A stretch of 64,000 bases of DNA, taken from contig JACMRL010000015.1 in assembly GCA_014376435.1 (NCBI GenBank), forward strand, positions 124,001 through 188,000, in the 5' to 3' direction. A program made the position numbers and the translations under genes. Source of the stretch: Bdellovibrio sp. Lineage in GTDB: Bacteria; Bdellovibrionota; Bdellovibrionia; Bdellovibrionales; Bdellovibrionaceae. Below, in pieces: positions 45,591-52,530 of this stretch (position 1 is its first letter; every line of letters begins with the position of its first letter). The notes beneath the pieces were generated by a model. The model was not told the origin of the DNA and searched no databases. It saw nothing but the letters and a program-made list of their open reading frames with translations.

Positions 45591-46982
45591 TTAATAATTT
45601 TGAACAAAGTTAGGACGAATTTTATAAATATTTTTCCAGTGCGAAAGATACGGAAACTCTATAACGATTTCTTTAAAATCTTCGTAATAAAATAATCCGT
45701 AATTTGGCCCCAGCTGAACCAACATTCTTTGGTAAACCGAATCTTTTACGGCATCATTACGTAAGAAAAATTCCGGCAAGTAGGCAACTTGGTAAAGTGG
45801 TACGTGATCAGGATCAATTAAAGATTTAGCCCGAATCGGAGTTTGATAATCAATGTAAAATTGCATTCCGTGATGGGTGATCAATTCATCGGTAGGCTTT
45901 ACGAACTCATTCAAGCGCTGAATGTCAGGTACTTCGCGGCTAGCCAAGATAATCCACGGATATCCTGATTGGTAGCTGAACTCATATGACATGAGAGCTA
46001 AAGACAAAACGAATGTGGTAATCACAATTTTTAGATTACGAATTTTGGCTAAAGCAAATACGTATAGAATGAAACTGAAGCAAAAACTAAAAATCATCAG
46101 GCGCCATTTAATTTCGGCATTCGCCCCGCCAAACATAGGTATCAGCGGAACGATAGAAAAAAACAATAGTGCCGATAAGAATGATTTTTGATAATTATTT
46201 TCTAGTTTAAATTTTTTAATCTGACTGAGTAAAATAATTAGCCACATTAAAAGACAAATCATATGTACCGAGTTCAAATGAGAATTTATTCCAAACAGCG
46301 AATTTAAATTTTCTACGCGTATTTGCTGAATAAAGTTTAAAAGATGCTTCAGTAGGCGGGGATTAAGCGCTATACCGACCGCAACCGTGATGGCTCCAAG
46401 GGCAAGCAATTTTTTTGAAATGCGTGGTAAGCTAAGAATTAAAATACCTAAGCTTAGGATAAAAATTAAAGCCACCGTCTTATGGGTCAGGGCGGCTAAA
46501 ATTCCGAAAGCCAAAGCCCATTTGTAATATTTTTTATAAAATAAAACGGAAGCCAATAAGAAAAATGAAATCGCAAAGCCATTCTTAATAAATTCAAAAC
46601 ACAATCGAAGTAGTGGAGTTTGAAAGCTGAATGCAATCAATAGTAATAATGTGACGATAAATTTATATTTAGGAAATGAATCTAGATTTTTAAAAGTAAA
46701 AAAGCCGATACAGCTAAGGATCATGAAATAACTAAAGCACGACACGATTTGGTAAGCGGTTAAAACCGATAAGCCAATTTTCGTTAATAATGCTAAAGGT
46801 ATAAAAACAAAAGAGTAGTCAGCGTGATAGAAAGCAAAGTGTTGGGCCAACCACTGAGTTTGTTTTAGATAGAAATAACCATCTCCGCCCGAGGGATCTA
46901 AGTAAGCGTGTAGTCTTAAAAAAGTAACGGCAGCCAAAAGAGCTGCCGTTAAATAAATAAAATATTGAGATCTTAATTTCAA
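45591..46982 (-). CDS. Polytopic membrane protein, GT-C-like
   Basis: A 463-residue inner-membrane protein with about ten to eleven hydrophobic segments. After the first helix comes LDPSGGDGYFYLKQTQWLAQ, an acidic first periplasmic loop as in GT-C mannosyl/arabinosyl-type transferases that use polyprenyl-linked sugars. The last 110 residues are soluble (VPDIQRLNEFVKPTDELITHHG), also typical. Exact donor and acceptor unknown. It lies 3 bases behind the YARHG-domain gene in the same operon. Confidence 0.6.
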   Translation of the reverse strand: MKLRSQYFIYLTAALLAAVTFLRLHAYLDPSGGDGYFYLKQTQWLAQHFAFYHADYSFVFIPLALLTKIGLSVLTAYQIVSCFSYFMILSCIGFFTFKNLDSFPKYKFIVTLLLLIAFSFQTPLLRLCFEFIKNGFAISFFLLASVLFYKKYYKWALAFGILAALTHKTVALIFILSLGILILSLPRISKKLLALGAITVAVGIALNPRLLKHLLNFIQQIRVENLNSLFGINSHLNSVHMICLLMWLIILLSQIKKFKLENNYQKSFLSALLFFSIVPLIPMFGGANAEIKWRLMIFSFCFSFILYVFALAKIRNLKIVITTFVLSLALMSYEFSYQSGYPWIILASREVPDIQRLNEFVKPTDELITHHGMQFYIDYQTPIRAKSLIDPDHVPLYQVAYLPEFFLRNDAVKDSVYQRMLVQLGPNYGLFYYEDFKEIVIEFPYLSHWKNIYKIRPNFVQNY

Positions 46983-46985
46983 AGT

Positions 46986-47777
46986 TTAATTCAATGTGCA
47001 GTCAAGAACCGACCTATCTTTGTAGTTACCACCATCAATTTTAACGCCTGAAGCTTTAAGTGGTTTCAAAGAGATTTTTACATCTCCCGAAGAGTCAACC
47101 ATCCAAGTACCAAATGAAGTCATCTCAACAACCGACAGAGAAGTTGAATCTAGGCCACGAATGCCAGTTGAATCTAAAGTAACTGATTTTCCGTTATCTT
47201 CGTCTTCATTACTAGGCATGTCTGCTTTAAGTTTTTTAATTTGAACTAATCCACCTAAAATAAATTTTCCGTCAGAATTTTTCTTTGCAGAAAAATGCAA
47301 GATCGTCGCACGGCCCATATCATTTTCATCGGATACGTGGCAGTACTGATCTTTTAGCATTGCAGCACGTGTTTTAGCTTTGGCTTTTGGCCAAACTTTA
47401 TCGAAATCGGCAACTTGTAAATTTGATTCAAGATATTTTAAATTTTTAATATTTGTTTTATCAATCGCAGTCAAATTAGAGTAAGAGTAAGTTAAATTTT
47501 CCTTCAAGCAACCACGTGTCTTCATTTCAGTCGTGACAGCTTCATCGGTAAATTTATAACCATATTGTGCAAAGATTGAATTACGTAAAGCTTTGGCTTC
47601 TTCTAACGTTAGATCATTTTCAAACATATCGAAGGTTTTATTCAAAGGAACGCAGCTAACAGACTGTTGCGCTACTTTACGATTTTGTTTGTGAGTTTTT
47701 TTTACCGGAGCGGCTACGGCTGTTAAGCCCGTGATTAGTAATGCTGCGAAAGTCATTTTTAACAAAGTCGTTTTCAT
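46986..47777 (-). CDS. Secreted YARHG-domain protein
   Basis: A 263-residue exported protein: signal peptide (MKTTLLKMTFAALLITGLTAVAA), a basic linker, then a YARHG-type domain (LTLEEAKALRNSIFAQYGYKF, ending NLTAIDKTNIKNLKYLE) at about 55-125. The second half is a beta-rich domain of unknown type. YARHG domains are extracellular, possibly binding peptidoglycan. I take ATG 47777 because AAAGG is spaced 6-7 bases from it; the ATG two codons upstream abuts the ribosome binding site. Confidence 0.7.
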   Translation of the reverse strand: MKTTLLKMTFAALLITGLTAVAAPVKKTHKQNRKVAQQSVSCVPLNKTFDMFENDLTLEEAKALRNSIFAQYGYKFTDEAVTTEMKTRGCLKENLTYSYSNLTAIDKTNIKNLKYLESNLQVADFDKVWPKAKAKTRAAMLKDQYCHVSDENDMGRATILHFSAKKNSDGKFILGGLVQIKKLKADMPSNEDEDNGKSVTLDSTGIRGLDSTSLSVVEMTSFGTWMVDSSGDVKISLKPLKASGVKIDGGNYKDRSVLDCTLN

Positions 47778-47910
47778 ATACATCCTTTATATTTACGTTC
47801 ATTTACATTGTAGCCAGAGCGAAAAGTCTTTTTCAACTAGACAAAATAATTAGTTACGCAAGTAGCTATTTTTTTTTTGATTAAAGCGAATTAGTTGCTA
47901 GTCTAACTAA

Positions 47911-48483
47911 ATGGAAGAAATGCTTTTACAGGATCTGTCTCAGCGCGATTGGCTGGGTATTCTTAATCAATCTTTGTTAACCCCCGCATTACTTCCAGTT
48001 CTGTTGGTTAATAATGGAGTTTCAGTCGAACGATTAACTCAATTAGCACGCATGTCGCTAAACTTATATGAACCTTACGGCAGGCACATCCTCTACAAAA
48101 GTCCAGAGATTGAAGTGATGCTGGCTAAGTGGTCTTACAGGTCAGCCGCTAGTCCGCACAATCATGGCTATTCACGCGGATTAATTTGGTTTTTAAAAGG
48201 CGACTTTAATGAACAGCACTTTCAATTTTCAAAAGGTCAATTAAATGCAGTGGGTGCTCCCGTATATTTTGCGGAGGGCGATGTGGCAACTGTTGTTTCA
48301 AGCGATATTCATTCTTGTTCTCCAGTGGGCGAAGGAATTTCTTTACATCTTTACAGTCCGGCAATTCAAGAAATGAAAGTTTGGGATTTAGCTAATAAAG
48401 AAACCCTAACGGTGGCTGACGAGTGCGGCGCCTGGGTTCCGCAAAAATCTGATTTGATTATTAAAAGAGTCAAATGGGAGTAA
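47911..48483 (+). CDS. Cysteine-dioxygenase-like cupin
   Basis: A 190-residue single-cupin thiol dioxygenase-like protein. The CDO pattern is clear: YGRHILYKSPEIEVMLAKW, iron ligands His83 and His85 in SPHNHGYSRG, third ligand His134 in SDIHSCSP, and ISLHLYSP behind it. CDO oxidises cysteine (or 3-mercaptopropionate and similar thiols) to the sulfinate. The usual HDHxxS is HNHGYS here. First gene of a tightly overlapping operon with a caspase-like/methyltransferase fusion and a racemase, so the substrate may be specialised. Confidence in family is good, in substrate low. Confidence 0.8.
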   Translation: MEEMLLQDLSQRDWLGILNQSLLTPALLPVLLVNNGVSVERLTQLARMSLNLYEPYGRHILYKSPEIEVMLAKWSYRSAASPHNHGYSRGLIWFLKGDFNEQHFQFSKGQLNAVGAPVYFAEGDVATVVSSDIHSCSPVGEGISLHLYSPAIQEMKVWDLANKETLTVADECGAWVPQKSDLIIKRVKWE

Positions 48484-49802
48484 CTCAAAATAAGTGTATC
48501 GTGATTACTTATACCACATTGTATCGCACGGGCGGCGAACAGTTTTTACGAGCCGCAGAAACCTTACGTAAAGAGAAATCAAAAGAATTTCCCGATCTTA
48601 AAATTATTTCGGTGGCTACGGAAAGCAAAGCCGCTTTTTTAAAAGTTTTTGAAGATATTAAAATGCAAAATCTGCTGGTCGAAGAATTTCACTTTTTTGG
48701 TCATAGCGGAGTTTATGGTGTTATGTTTGGTACAACCGATTGGCCCGAACAGTTTAGCCCCTTCGAATGGAAACAGATGCAGTGGCCGTTGGCAAACCAG
48801 GCAAAAATTTTCTTTCACGCTTGCCGGACGGCTCGTTGGTTAGCCCTTTTTTTAGCGACGCACTTCAACCGCAATGTATACGGCTACTGGTGGTATACAA
48901 CTATTTCTACCTCAAATAAAAAATTTATTTGGAAACCAAATCTAAAGGCTCCGGGCGATTTGTATATTGTTTCTTGCGCTGGCCGAAAATCGCATGGCTT
49001 ATCAGCATCGGTGTTAAAATATTTAGGCCAAGTAAAATTATATCCGATGATCGAATACAAACCTGCAGATGGACAGATTGATCGGTCATACGATTTTGTA
49101 TCTGAGCTCTATGAGGATACCTTTCAAGATTTATCAGTTCGAAAAGATGAGTGGCATTGGCTGCATAAAAATATTGATTTTAATAAAACAAAAACTTTAT
49201 TAGACATCGGCTGCGGCAATGGGGCTTTCCTTCGGCAAGTCGCGCCCCAATTAGAAAAAGTCAGCGGGGTTGATGCTTCCGCCGGAATGTTAAAAGTAGC
49301 GCAAACGAAAGCAAGTGAAGCGGGAATTGAAAATATTGATTTTCAAAGAATCGACGGACCAAAGCTACCATTTGCAGATAATCAATTTGATACGGTGATT
49401 TCTGTTTTATCTTTTCGTTATCTAGATTGGGACCCCATGATTAACGAAATTTTGCGGGTTTTAAAGCCGGGTGGGCGAATATTAATTTTAGATATGGTGG
49501 CGGCGCCGATTCGCTTTTACGAGATTCCTCAATTACTAATTTCCAAAATGAAAAATTATTTTCAGCGTATACAAAATCCGAAATACTATAAAGCTTTAAG
49601 TAAAATGGTTTCAATGCCCGCATGGCAGCAAATGTTAAAGTACAATCCCATTCGGGCCGAACACGAATATAAATGGTATTTGCAAAGTCGTTTTCCAAAT
49701 TCAAAGCAAGACTGTATTAATATTGCGTGGCATTCGCGGATTATTACTTTTAACTCTGGCCCGGTTCATTTTAAATCGGTGCAAAAAACGAGTTTTCCGT
49801 GA
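48474..49802 (+). CDS. Caspase-like domain fused to a SAM-dependent methyltransferase
   Basis: A 442-residue two-domain protein. Residues 225-430 are a class I methyltransferase: motif I LDIGCGNGAF at 243-252, SGVDASAGML, LPFADNQFDTVISVLSF and LKPGGRILILDM. The N-terminal 200 residues look like a caspase-fold (clan CD, DUF4347/CHAT-like) domain: hydrophobic strand then FFGHSG with His77, and FFHACRTA with Cys117, spaced 40 residues apart as in caspases, with a LFGT-type strand between. It overlaps the cupin gene by 10 bases and the racemase gene by 4. The combination is new to me; whether the His/Cys pair is catalytic is inference. Confidence 0.7.
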   Translation: MGVTQNKCIVITYTTLYRTGGEQFLRAAETLRKEKSKEFPDLKIISVATESKAAFLKVFEDIKMQNLLVEEFHFFGHSGVYGVMFGTTDWPEQFSPFEWKQMQWPLANQAKIFFHACRTARWLALFLATHFNRNVYGYWWYTTISTSNKKFIWKPNLKAPGDLYIVSCAGRKSHGLSASVLKYLGQVKLYPMIEYKPADGQIDRSYDFVSELYEDTFQDLSVRKDEWHWLHKNIDFNKTKTLLDIGCGNGAFLRQVAPQLEKVSGVDASAGMLKVAQTKASEAGIENIDFQRIDGPKLPFADNQFDTVISVLSFRYLDWDPMINEILRVLKPGGRILILDMVAAPIRFYEIPQLLISKMKNYFQRIQNPKYYKALSKMVSMPAWQQMLKYNPIRAEHEYKWYLQSRFPNSKQDCINIAWHSRIITFNSGPVHFKSVQKTSFP

Positions 49803-50548
49803 ATTTAGGTTTAGTTGACTGGGGCGTTGGCGGACTTAGCGTTTATCAGCGATTAATCAGTAAAAAATTAAATATAACGTACTTGTCAGATTCCGGGGCG
49901 ATGCCCTATGGGAAGATGGCGAAGCCTCAGTTGATCCAAAGATTGCAGCTAGTTTGCGATTTCTTTCGTACAAAAAATATCCAGCATATCGTTATTGCGT
50001 GTAACGCAGCCAGCACCGTACTTAACGAAGTAAAACGTAAAAATCCTGATCTAGTTTTTTATGGAATGTTAGATAGTGGTGCCGAGCTAGTCAGAAAATC
50101 GAAAGTCGAAAACAGCTTAATTATCGGTGGCAAAAGAACGGTTCTATCTAAATATTTTCAAACGAGGTTTAAAAATTCCCGTATTAAAACTCAAGTAAAA
50201 ATTGCGCAGCCATTGTCGGCATTTATTGAAAAAGGTGATATGTCTTCAATCCTTTTTCAGCGTAGTTTAAAAAAAGTTTTTTCAAATTTGAAATTTAAAC
50301 CCGATTCGGTATTACTGGCGTGTACGCATTATCCAGCCATTGAAAAACAAATCAAGCAGCTTGTGCCCACGGCAAAAATATTAGACCCAAGCACGATGAT
50401 TATTAAAAAAATTTCTCGAAAAAAAGAAATCAATTTTTTGAAAAAAACGGATCAGTTCTACACGACGGGCTTGCCATCATCCATGGTAAAAAGCGCTCAA
50501 AAAGCCTTTGGCCTTAACATCAGAAAGCTTACGAAAATTTCTCTTTAA
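49799..50548 (+). CDS. Glutamate/aspartate racemase-like protein
   Basis: A 249-residue MurI-like racemase. Both catalytic cysteines are present: Cys68 in ACNAAST and Cys175 in LLACTHYPA. The glycine motif is DWGVGGLSV (Trp replaces the usual Ser of DSGIGGLSV), and DSGAMPYGK replaces the usual DTxxxPYG. MurI makes D-glutamate for peptidoglycan. The divergence in these motifs and the odd operon suggest a specialised racemase rather than the main MurI, but it could also be the only one. GTG start overlapping the upstream TGA. Confidence 0.78.
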   Translation: MNLGLVDWGVGGLSVYQRLISKKLNITYLSDSGAMPYGKMAKPQLIQRLQLVCDFFRTKNIQHIVIACNAASTVLNEVKRKNPDLVFYGMLDSGAELVRKSKVENSLIIGGKRTVLSKYFQTRFKNSRIKTQVKIAQPLSAFIEKGDMSSILFQRSLKKVFSNLKFKPDSVLLACTHYPAIEKQIKQLVPTAKILDPSTMIIKKISRKKEINFLKKTDQFYTTGLPSSMVKSAQKAFGLNIRKLTKISL

Positions 50549-50731: not shown

Positions 50732-51568
50732 TTATTGAGGTAGTGCTACGAACAGGTCTTCTACAAAAGCGCGTTGGCTAAATTGAAAGCCGACGCCTTT
50801 TAATTCAAAGGCAACTTCACTTGGGTAAGTTGTTCCATCGCTTGGAACATGAGTCATCGCCACATTATCAAACATGCTAGCCGGAGCACGTCCGCTATAA
50901 TCAATCCAAGAATTCACAACTTTTAAAATCATCTGTTGCTCGCCCCAGGCGTGATTATAATCGTAACCGTATATATTAACGAAGTGTCCGCCCACGCGAC
51001 TGTAGGTGTTGGAAACCGAGTTGAATTCATACCAACCTAGGCCCATAACCACCATTAATTTATTACCAACGTAGGTGCGGAAATCAGTTATATTTAAAAC
51101 ATGCTGCGTGGTTTGTAGGGGTAATCCTGGCTGAGCCTCTACCGAATGAGGACCAACCATGTAAGAATATGGTTTATAGCCAGAAGTTTGAATGTAGGCT
51201 TTCATACAAGCTAAAGCCATTGAATAGCGAGTCCCGCCTTGCTTGTCAGTTTGACAAGTTTGAAAGAAATAACGAATTTTATCTTGGTAAGAATCCGAAA
51301 CTCCGTCGTTGTCCAAATCAAGCACGGGGGCTAATTGTTTAAAGCCCGCTGCATAACGTAGGTAAGTAAAACCATGGGTCATGGCGATCGGCGCGCACAG
51401 CTCGCTGCCATTCGTACCAAACAAGTCTTTCAACTGAGCAACCGGATAAAGATTAAGTCCGGGTTGAAAATTAATGGCTTCGTCAAAAGGACCAATTTCT
51501 AAGGGCGCGATTTCTGCAAAAGCTGAGGCGGTGGTCAAAAGCGAAAAAGCGAGTAAAAATTTTAGCAT
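50732..51568 (-). CDS. Secreted papain-like cysteine protease candidate
   Basis: A 278-residue exported protein: signal peptide ending ASAFA. A Cys-His-Asn order suits a C39/papain-like fold: Cys58 in NGSELCAPIAMTHG, His195 in GGHFVNIYGYDY, Asn219 in VNSWIDY. Other cysteines (105, 121) may pair. A Ca-binding-like DLDNDGVSD lies at about 84-92. No specific family is known to me. It is convergent with the racemase side and divergent from the HExxH gene at 51640. Confidence 0.6.
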   Translation of the reverse strand: MLKFLLAFSLLTTASAFAEIAPLEIGPFDEAINFQPGLNLYPVAQLKDLFGTNGSELCAPIAMTHGFTYLRYAAGFKQLAPVLDLDNDGVSDSYQDKIRYFFQTCQTDKQGGTRYSMALACMKAYIQTSGYKPYSYMVGPHSVEAQPGLPLQTTQHVLNITDFRTYVGNKLMVVMGLGWYEFNSVSNTYSRVGGHFVNIYGYDYNHAWGEQQMILKVVNSWIDYSGRAPASMFDNVAMTHVPSDGTTYPSEVAFELKGVGFQFSQRAFVEDLFVALPQ

Positions 51569-51639: not shown

Positions 51640-52530
51640 ATGAAATTAAATCGGCTGCTGGAGCTTCATTCGGACACAACTGAGCCTCATCATCTATCTG
51701 ATAATTTTGGCGATTCTTTATTGTGTAAAAAAAATAAAATATTTTCAAATATTCGTAAAGCCTGCTTATCAAGATCTTATCAATTTAGTTCTGCGCAAAA
51801 TGAATTTTACCAAGCTTTGCCACTCAGTCAGCTGGAAGATGTTTTAACTAAAAAAGTAATTCCTTACGTAAATAATGTTTCGGTTTTAAAGCATCTTGAG
51901 CGAAACTGGCCCCATGTGACCGAGTGGGATGATCTATCTGACAATTTGAAGCGTAATTTTGTATTTCACGAATCTTGTCATGCAGTGGCGCGCAGTGAAG
52001 CGTTAGCTAGTCAGCAGTTAACTGATTCGCTGGTGCTACAGATGTTGATTGAAGAGTCTTTTGCAAATACCTGTGAACTATTGGCTGTCATTGATGCCGA
52101 AGATAATGCGCACCGTATTTTTTACGAAATCAGTTCTTATACAAGTTTATTTGAAGAGCGGACAAATTTAAAAAACGCCCAGACCGAGATTGGTTCAGAA
52201 AAACTAATGGAGTTCATTCTTTTAAGTTATTTACATTCAAATTTTTTATTTGAAAGTTTAGACGAATTGCAATTCAAGCGAATTTTAAAAATTATATTTA
52301 AAGAAAATAGTCCTAACCCAAGCCAAGTTAAAACGATGAAAAGAATTTCTAAGATTTGTTTTACCTTAGACGAAAAATTTAAGTTTGTGACCACGGGATT
52401 TTATATGCGCTTGAATGGTTACAAAATGTCACAGAGTAATTTATTAAGTTTTGATTTTATGGCACGGATCGAACAAACTCCTGTTTTGCAAAACTACCTA
52501 ATAAAAATCATCAAGATTGCGTTGGATTAA
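51640..52530 (+). CDS. HExxH-containing putative metalloprotease-like protein
   Basis: A 296-residue protein without a signal peptide. HESCH at residues 110-114 fits HExxH, and EESFAN at 138-143, 24 residues later, could give the third zinc ligand of a gluzincin. The rest is helical. No family recognised. The gene is divergent from the papain-like gene (71 bases between) and its end overlaps a minus-strand gene remnant. Confidence 0.55.
   Translation: MKLNRLLELHSDTTEPHHLSDNFGDSLLCKKNKIFSNIRKACLSRSYQFSSAQNEFYQALPLSQLEDVLTKKVIPYVNNVSVLKHLERNWPHVTEWDDLSDNLKRNFVFHESCHAVARSEALASQQLTDSLVLQMLIEESFANTCELLAVIDAEDNAHRIFYEISSYTSLFEERTNLKNAQTEIGSEKLMEFILLSYLHSNFLFESLDELQFKRILKIIFKENSPNPSQVKTMKRISKICFTLDEKFKFVTTGFYMRLNGYKMSQSNLLSFDFMARIEQTPVLQNYLIKIIKIALD

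Follow-up and report, generated by a model that had tools for sequence, protein, structure and literature searches.

We analysed a stretch of 64,000 nucleotides (the window; G000:C5 in our labelling) from a Bdellovibrio sp. genome (assembly GCA_014376435.1, contig JACMRL010000015.1, positions 124,001 to 188,000). The assembly has 2.76 Mb and a completeness of 90.75. A preliminary description, made from the sequence alone, had pointed to three genes at 47911-50548 as an operon: a thiol-dioxygenase cupin, a protein that pairs a caspase-like fold with a methyltransferase (casMT from here on), and a two-cysteine amino-acid racemase (Table 1). The list of open reading frames and a check of the sequence confirmed three frames on the + strand, which overlap by 10 and 4 bases, and since casMT and the racemase recur as a pair in distant genomes, this arrangement is beyond chance.

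Table 1. Features at the casMT locus, in positions of the window (aa, amino acids).
Feature	Position	Strand	Remarks
Cupin, cysteine-dioxygenase (CDO) type, 190 aa	47911..48483	+	H83/H85/H134; R58 corresponds to Arg60 of CDO; S144-H146-Y148
casMT, 442 aa, N-terminal caspase-fold domain fused to S-adenosylmethionine (SAM) methyltransferase	48474..49802	+	Start lies 10 bases inside the cupin gene
Caspase-fold domain as modelled, residues 1-199	48474..49070	+	Predicted dyad: H77 follows strand 67-75, C117 follows strand 106-115
Methyltransferase core, residues 243-338	49200..49487	+	Methyltransf_11
Asp/Glu-family racemase, separate clade, 249 aa	49799..50548	+	GTG start; D7-W8-G9, C68-N-A-A-S, C175-T-H; 4-base overlap with casMT
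Small secreted-type protein, 265 aa, YARHG domain	46986..47783	-	Divergent; secretion judged by eye; 29.4 bits vs. cut-off of 27
Hydrophobic membrane protein, 463 aa	45591..46982	-	Membrane spans by eye; similar to EpsG under the cut-off; DPxGxDGYFYLKQ motif; 3 bases after the gene for the secreted protein
Intergenic region, 127 bases	47784..47910	.	Between the two divergent gene groups

We searched the 368 genomes of the window's phylum, Bdellovibrionota, with the N-terminal 219 residues of casMT. Five genomes had a match; four of them encode casMT and the fifth (G031) encodes a different protein. A scan of contigs gave eight casMT loci in metagenome-assembled genomes (MAGs) labelled as Bdellovibrio, Bdellovibrionales, Myxococcales, delta-/proteobacterium, and Verrucomicrobia. 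A ten-row casMT profile was then run on two more phyla. It matched 23 of 377 genomes in the one to which the Myxococcales MAG (L014) belongs and 2 of 387 in the other, that of the Verrucomicrobia-labelled MAG, where one match is a complete casMT and the other is just a short N-terminal stretch. The Verrucomicrobia case rests on a contig of 4.5 kb, and the binning of MAGs can be wrong. Together these are the 28 casMT genomes that we refer to below (4 + 23 + 1, with G178 and G301 each counted once). Five of the 23 genomes from the phylum of L014, as well as the Verrucomicrobia-labelled one, contributed rows to the casMT profile. The best 8 candidates per genome were scored in the casMT profile searches and in the cupin search of the phylum of L014, and the best 4 for the membrane protein, so absences are not certain. 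As a side observation, the short stretch in the second genome of the Verrucomicrobia-labelled group (L141, 5359-5865, - strand) is the N-terminal part of a casMT-like frame, and by its look it is a remnant or a broken gene.

The racemase gene lies directly after casMT in 25 of the 28 genomes, and it is present in 27 of them, twice in pieces only. In one of these two (G370), casMT is cut off by the end of its contig, and another contig opens with a racemase that has no start and reads ACHSAS instead of ACNAAS. In the other (G301), the membrane-protein gene is followed by the start of the racemase, where the contig ends, and a further piece is on another contig. If we take the first start of the open frame, the two genes overlap by 4 bases at 10 junctions and by 10 bases at 3 junctions, while 3 loci have gaps of 1, 39, and 58 bases; at another 9, the frame extends further up and the start is unsure. 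The distances between casMT proteins and between their racemases are correlated across 24 loci (r = 0.824, versus 0.319 for the best of 2000 permutations), and shared host descent contributes to this correlation, as it does to the one for the cupin below. Overall, it is well supported that casMT and the racemase are a deeply conserved pair across distant bacteria.

The methyltransferase core of casMT scored above the cut-offs of several Pfam families (for Methyltransf_11, 83.8 bits vs. 21.2). Its SAM motif I is conserved as well: G246, G248, and G250 are each found in 28 of 28 proteins, and D244 in 27. For the N-terminal domain, a Pfam scan of the window's protein and of the ten profile rows gave no family. 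There were marginal matches to two families, DUF4347 (PF14252; E = 0.18, in one of the ten rows) and Amidase (three rows, best E = 0.18), but these are not significant, and unlike casMT, DUF4347 comes without a methyltransferase. The protein from G031 that matched weakly in our search (L011, 8750-9904, - strand) was rejected as a relative of casMT: it is of secreted type and similar to the caspase-fold domain, with a marginal match to DUF4347 (E = 0.022), and it has no methyltransferase.

When a model of full-length casMT was compared to the PDB, the methyltransferase half dominated the matches, so we folded the N-terminal domain alone (AlphaFold, with nine sequences). The predicted structure is a caspase-type fold (predicted local distance difference test, 82.7; predicted template modelling score, 0.85), which agrees with the preliminary description. 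Foldseek's best match in the PDB was the activated SAVED-CHAT protease (8tl0, E = 6.9e-4), which was the sole match below 0.001, and the next ranks were mostly caspases and MALT1. Template modelling scores (TMq) among the top ten were 0.40-0.50, so the relation to caspases is distant. In caspases, the catalytic His/Cys dyad sits behind two core strands. H77 and C117 of casMT, which are found in 28 of 28 proteins, follow core strands that end at 75 and 115 in the model, and we predict that they form a catalytic dyad placed as in caspases. With these two residues, casMT may hydrolyse a peptide bond. Thus, casMT resembles the clan CD peptidases (caspases, the paracaspase MALT1, and the SAVED-CHAT protease) in its predicted fold and in the position of the dyad, but it has no match to their sequence families, is fused to a SAM methyltransferase, and is encoded beside metabolic enzymes. 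In particular, Pfam found no Peptidase_C14 in casMT, and a search of the window's own genome with PF00656 gave 0 matches. Among the proteins of the locus, just casMT matched PHROGs, within the methyltransferase part.

The racemase scored 33 bits against PF01177 (cut-off, 31) and 114.6 bits against the glutamate racemase (MurI) model TIGR00067, which is below that model's equivalog cut-off of 146.65. Both catalytic cysteines are conserved in the operon racemases (C68 in 25 of 25 and C175 in 24 of 24), as the preliminary description had expected. It had also reported an altered glycine motif, but the glycines are kept, and what has changed is that DWG replaces DSG (W8, 26/26) and ACNAAS replaces ACNTAS (A70, 24/25). 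We take the Ser11 and Thr76 positions of MurI to line the pocket. Ordinary racemases in the same genomes have DSG in 25 of 25 cases and ACNTA in 20 of 25. These ordinary, DSG-type copies are encoded elsewhere in 25 of the 28 casMT genomes (one is partial; none was seen in G301, G700, or G734), and 24 of the 28 genomes have an ordinary copy above the TIGR00067 cut-off. We also built a tree of 47 racemases, which excluded L125 and L133 (both ordinary) as well as any operon copy that was incomplete. A branch with 100/100 support splits this tree into 24 operon racemases and 23 ordinary ones; there were warnings of long branches. Because the operon copies are a clade of their own and an ordinary copy is usually present, we rule out that the operon racemase is the cell's only MurI, which the preliminary description had named as an outcome that would count against it. 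So, the operon racemase is like MurI in its superfamily, its two catalytic cysteines, and its PYG and CTH motifs, but it differs in DWG and ACNAAS, in its separate clade beside an ordinary copy, and, for the window's protein, in its score. Separately, TIGR00067 matched no glutamate racemase of any kind in G700 (L060), whose assembly may be incomplete.

The cupin scored 21.8 bits (E = 1.5e-4) against Pfam's CDO_I, which is under the gathering cut-off of 23, so we call it CDO-type and do not file it as a CDO. A profile of eight cupin relatives does match solved CDOs from bacteria and mammals (3eqe, E = 2.6e-21). R58, H83, H85, H134, H146, and Y148 are each found in all 12 aligned members, while S144 is replaced by Thr in L015. 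The histidines align with those of CDO, and the pattern of His83, His85, and His134 that had been read from the sequence holds. R58 is aligned with the Arg of YTRN in mammalian CDO. Passages of one paper tie Arg60 and Tyr157 of CDO to substrate recognition (PMC8050391). Compared to bacterial CDOs (3eqe, 4qm8), the cupin has the same three-His site, an Arg at the place of Arg60, and the S-H-Y motif, but it also has a conserved C-terminal stretch, C-G-A-W-x-P, past the region that aligns with CDO, and it is in an operon with casMT and the racemase.

The cupin is less tightly linked to casMT than the racemase is. It lies directly upstream in 12 of the 28 genomes. The check named in the preliminary description, gene order kept beyond close relatives, came out in its favour, with the correction that the near-constant part is casMT and the racemase. 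Anywhere in the genome, we found a cupin match in 19 of the 28 at E = 1e-3 and in 16 of the 28 at 1e-28. Within the phylum of L014, 12 of 23 casMT genomes have a strong cupin match (E <= 1e-28), as against 10 of the 354 others (P = 4.6e-11, Fisher exact test; the test ignores relatedness, and four casMT genomes contributed rows to the cupin profile). Where both are present, the divergence of casMT and that of the cupin are correlated (r = 0.915, 12 loci; best permutation, 0.680). Overall, the cupin is an accessory gene of the module. Relatives of the cupin are also found in ten genomes without a casMT match (L093-L102), with differing neighbours. An MBOAT gene adjoins one of these (L093), and several adjoin a protein of about 390 amino acids without a Pfam match (L094 was tested). 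This suggests that the cupin family has a second genomic context outside of casMT loci.

What might these enzymes do? Because the active-site residues of all four sites are kept, an enzymatic pathway is likely, and its chemistry would most likely be oxidation, inversion, and methylation. Our best guess, which is tentative, is that the genes encode a conserved module of enzymes that modify a small acidic amino acid, either by itself or within a short peptide. Where the cupin is present, it would oxidise cysteine to cysteine sulfinate, which is a look-alike of aspartate. The racemase would invert the α-carbon by two-cysteine proton transfer, and because its active-site motifs differ from those of MurI, its substrate would be something other than free glutamate. 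The caspase-fold domain would recognise the acidic residue and use H77 and C117 to cut or activate the adjoining bond, and the fused methyltransferase would methylate the molecule that the caspase-fold domain handles. In some lineages, the product might go to the cell envelope, where the membrane protein and the small secreted protein would take part in its use. We favour an acidic amino acid or peptide because cysteine sulfinate is aspartate-like, the racemase belongs to the Asp/Glu family, and casMT has a set of basic residues (R18, K52, R118, and R121, each in 28 of 28) that would suit an acidic substrate. Some of these basic residues presumably resemble acidic P1 pocket places of caspases.

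A similar order of steps is known from fungal oxepinamide biosynthesis (OpaE/OpaF): according to passages of a paper on this pathway, OpaE, a two-cysteine racemase of the same superfamily, inverts a peptide-derived product, which enables a methyltransferase to act (PMC12661438). Unlike the operon racemase, OpaE belongs to the allantoin-hydantoin branch and has a substrate that derives from a nonribosomal peptide, and those passages mention neither a caspase-fold domain nor a CDO.

Several results weigh against our proposal. The cupin is not directly upstream of casMT in 16 of the 28 genomes (in L049, the contig ends there) and is unmatched in 9, which means that cysteine sulfinate cannot serve as the substrate everywhere. 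Only 8 of the 28 have the membrane protein, and in G700, casMT is present with no racemase match. The operon racemase of G199 scored 147.1 bits against TIGR00067, which puts it over the MurI cut-off by half a bit (it is the sole operon copy over the cut-off among those scored), so this copy may have MurI-like activity. When profiles were compared, kinship of casMT with 22 bacterial C14 domains was not supported (E = 0.083, probability 0.7%); the short local alignment did pair H77 with the histidine of C14. That the basic residues point to an acidic substrate is a presumption drawn from caspase motifs. And we noticed no peptide-forming enzyme or precursor peptide in the neighbourhoods, with no dedicated search made. 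A more specific version of our proposal is possible, but we have less confidence in it: an undescribed biosynthetic pathway, with the caspase fold as a biosynthetic enzyme that is fused to a methyltransferase and has its own racemase, might turn an acidic residue, which would be cysteine sulfinate in genomes with the dioxygenase, into a D-configured, methylated signal, metabolite, or envelope substituent.

The genes divergent from the operon (45591-47783) bear on a role at the envelope. This pair is part of the neighbourhood in all four casMT loci from Bdellovibrionota, so in these loci two more genes belong with the three that had been grouped together. Among the 368 genomes, strong matches to the membrane protein were found in exactly the four casMT genomes, with two weak matches elsewhere (E = 5.8e-7 and 3.8e-4); as three of the four contributed rows to the profile, the independent facts are the match in G199 and the absence from the rest. 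Where the membrane protein accompanies casMT, it is encoded nearby in seven of the eight genomes (in G404, with intervening genes). The membrane-protein gene of L017 shares 4 bases with casMT. The genes for YARHG and the membrane protein recur as a pair, which in G456 lies on a contig other than casMT's (L070, 770-2874); this genome also matches the membrane protein a second time, more weakly. A small secreted-type protein precedes the membrane protein in 7 of 8 loci (L017 has another protein there). In the window, this protein has a YARHG domain scored by Pfam, as do those of L060 and L070, while a YARHG-like stretch can be seen by eye in L056. Parts of one paper put forward the hypothesis that YARHG binds peptidoglycan (PMC3355149).

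These observations, along with the cupin relative beside an MBOAT gene in a genome without casMT, would fit a more envelope-centred explanation, in which the cytoplasmic enzymes make an acidic substituent, methylated and D-configured, for attachment to peptidoglycan or a glycan by the membrane protein, with the YARHG protein as its sensor or anchor. We consider this doubtful, as most casMT genomes lack the membrane protein. Also, its match to EpsG is inconsistent: it is under the cut-off in the window (23.5 vs. 30.1 bits), just over in L008 (33.1 bits), and absent at E = 0.1 in L009, L017, and L056. Similarly, the small proteins in L008 and L009 have no YARHG domain and are just 18-19% identical to the window's protein, so their kinship with it is not established.

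Another explanation is protein processing: the caspase fold would cleave cellular proteins after acidic residues, the methyltransferase would cap or repair the new end, and the racemase would supply or correct D-aspartyl residues. A caspase fold with a conserved dyad and a fused methyltransferase would fit, but Pfam matched no further protein-binding domain in casMT, and the characterised racemases of the Asp/Glu family are known to act on small molecules. This explanation also does not account for the CDO-type cupin, and we think that it is unlikely.

Caspase-like and CHAT domains serve in bacterial defence, so we also considered an anti-phage or cell-death system built around a caspase-like effector. 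The patchy distribution of casMT and the best fold match, to a SAVED-CHAT structure, are consistent with this. However, PADLOC (E <= 0.1) matched the methyltransferase part only (mad2, E = 2.3e-24, residues 229-339, and two weak models of type II methyltransferases), and gave nothing for the caspase-fold domain, the cupin, the racemase, or the two divergent proteins. At our thresholds, plasmids, phages, and viral contigs yielded no relatives either. A defence system is therefore very improbable. Finally, every part belongs to a common superfamily, as would be expected if these were just neighbouring housekeeping-type genes, but for casMT and the racemase this is refuted by their adjacency, gene overlaps, and matching divergence, and it is hardly credible for the system as a whole, although for the cupin it may hold in the lineages without one.

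Instead, we return to the tailoring of an acidic amino acid or peptide. To our knowledge, bacterial caspase folds are known mainly as peptidases and as effectors of death or defence. If our proposal is true, then a deeply conserved fusion of a caspase fold and a methyltransferase, with a dedicated racemase, would extend the caspase fold to metabolism and would point to a natural product or surface modification that is new in Myxococcota and Bdellovibrionota. With just two genes, the core could be expressed and assayed directly. The parts are from known superfamilies, while the fusion and the combination of genes are probably undescribed: in the literature that we searched, no paper described the casMT fusion or the combination of casMT, racemase, and dioxygenase, and none joined DUF4347 and caspase. 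A paper on prokaryotic caspase homologs does not contain the word "methyltransferase" (PMC3501461). This is in line with the statement in the preliminary description that no pathway with these three genes was known; that description was right in substance, and its interpretation is supported.

Two other genes near the operon are worth mentioning. On the - strand of the window, 50732-51568 encodes a secreted-type protein of 278 amino acids, with no Pfam match over the cut-off and no NCBIfam match, which by eye is like papain-like C39 peptidases. A protein of 296 amino acids with a HESCH (HExxH-like) motif and no Pfam match over the cut-off is encoded in the window (51640-52530, + strand) and in L013 (12087-12980). 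Among the loci compared (L008-L020), its sole relative is at the locus of G178. In L013, its gene and that of the racemase share 4 bases, while in the window, a gene on the reverse strand separates them.

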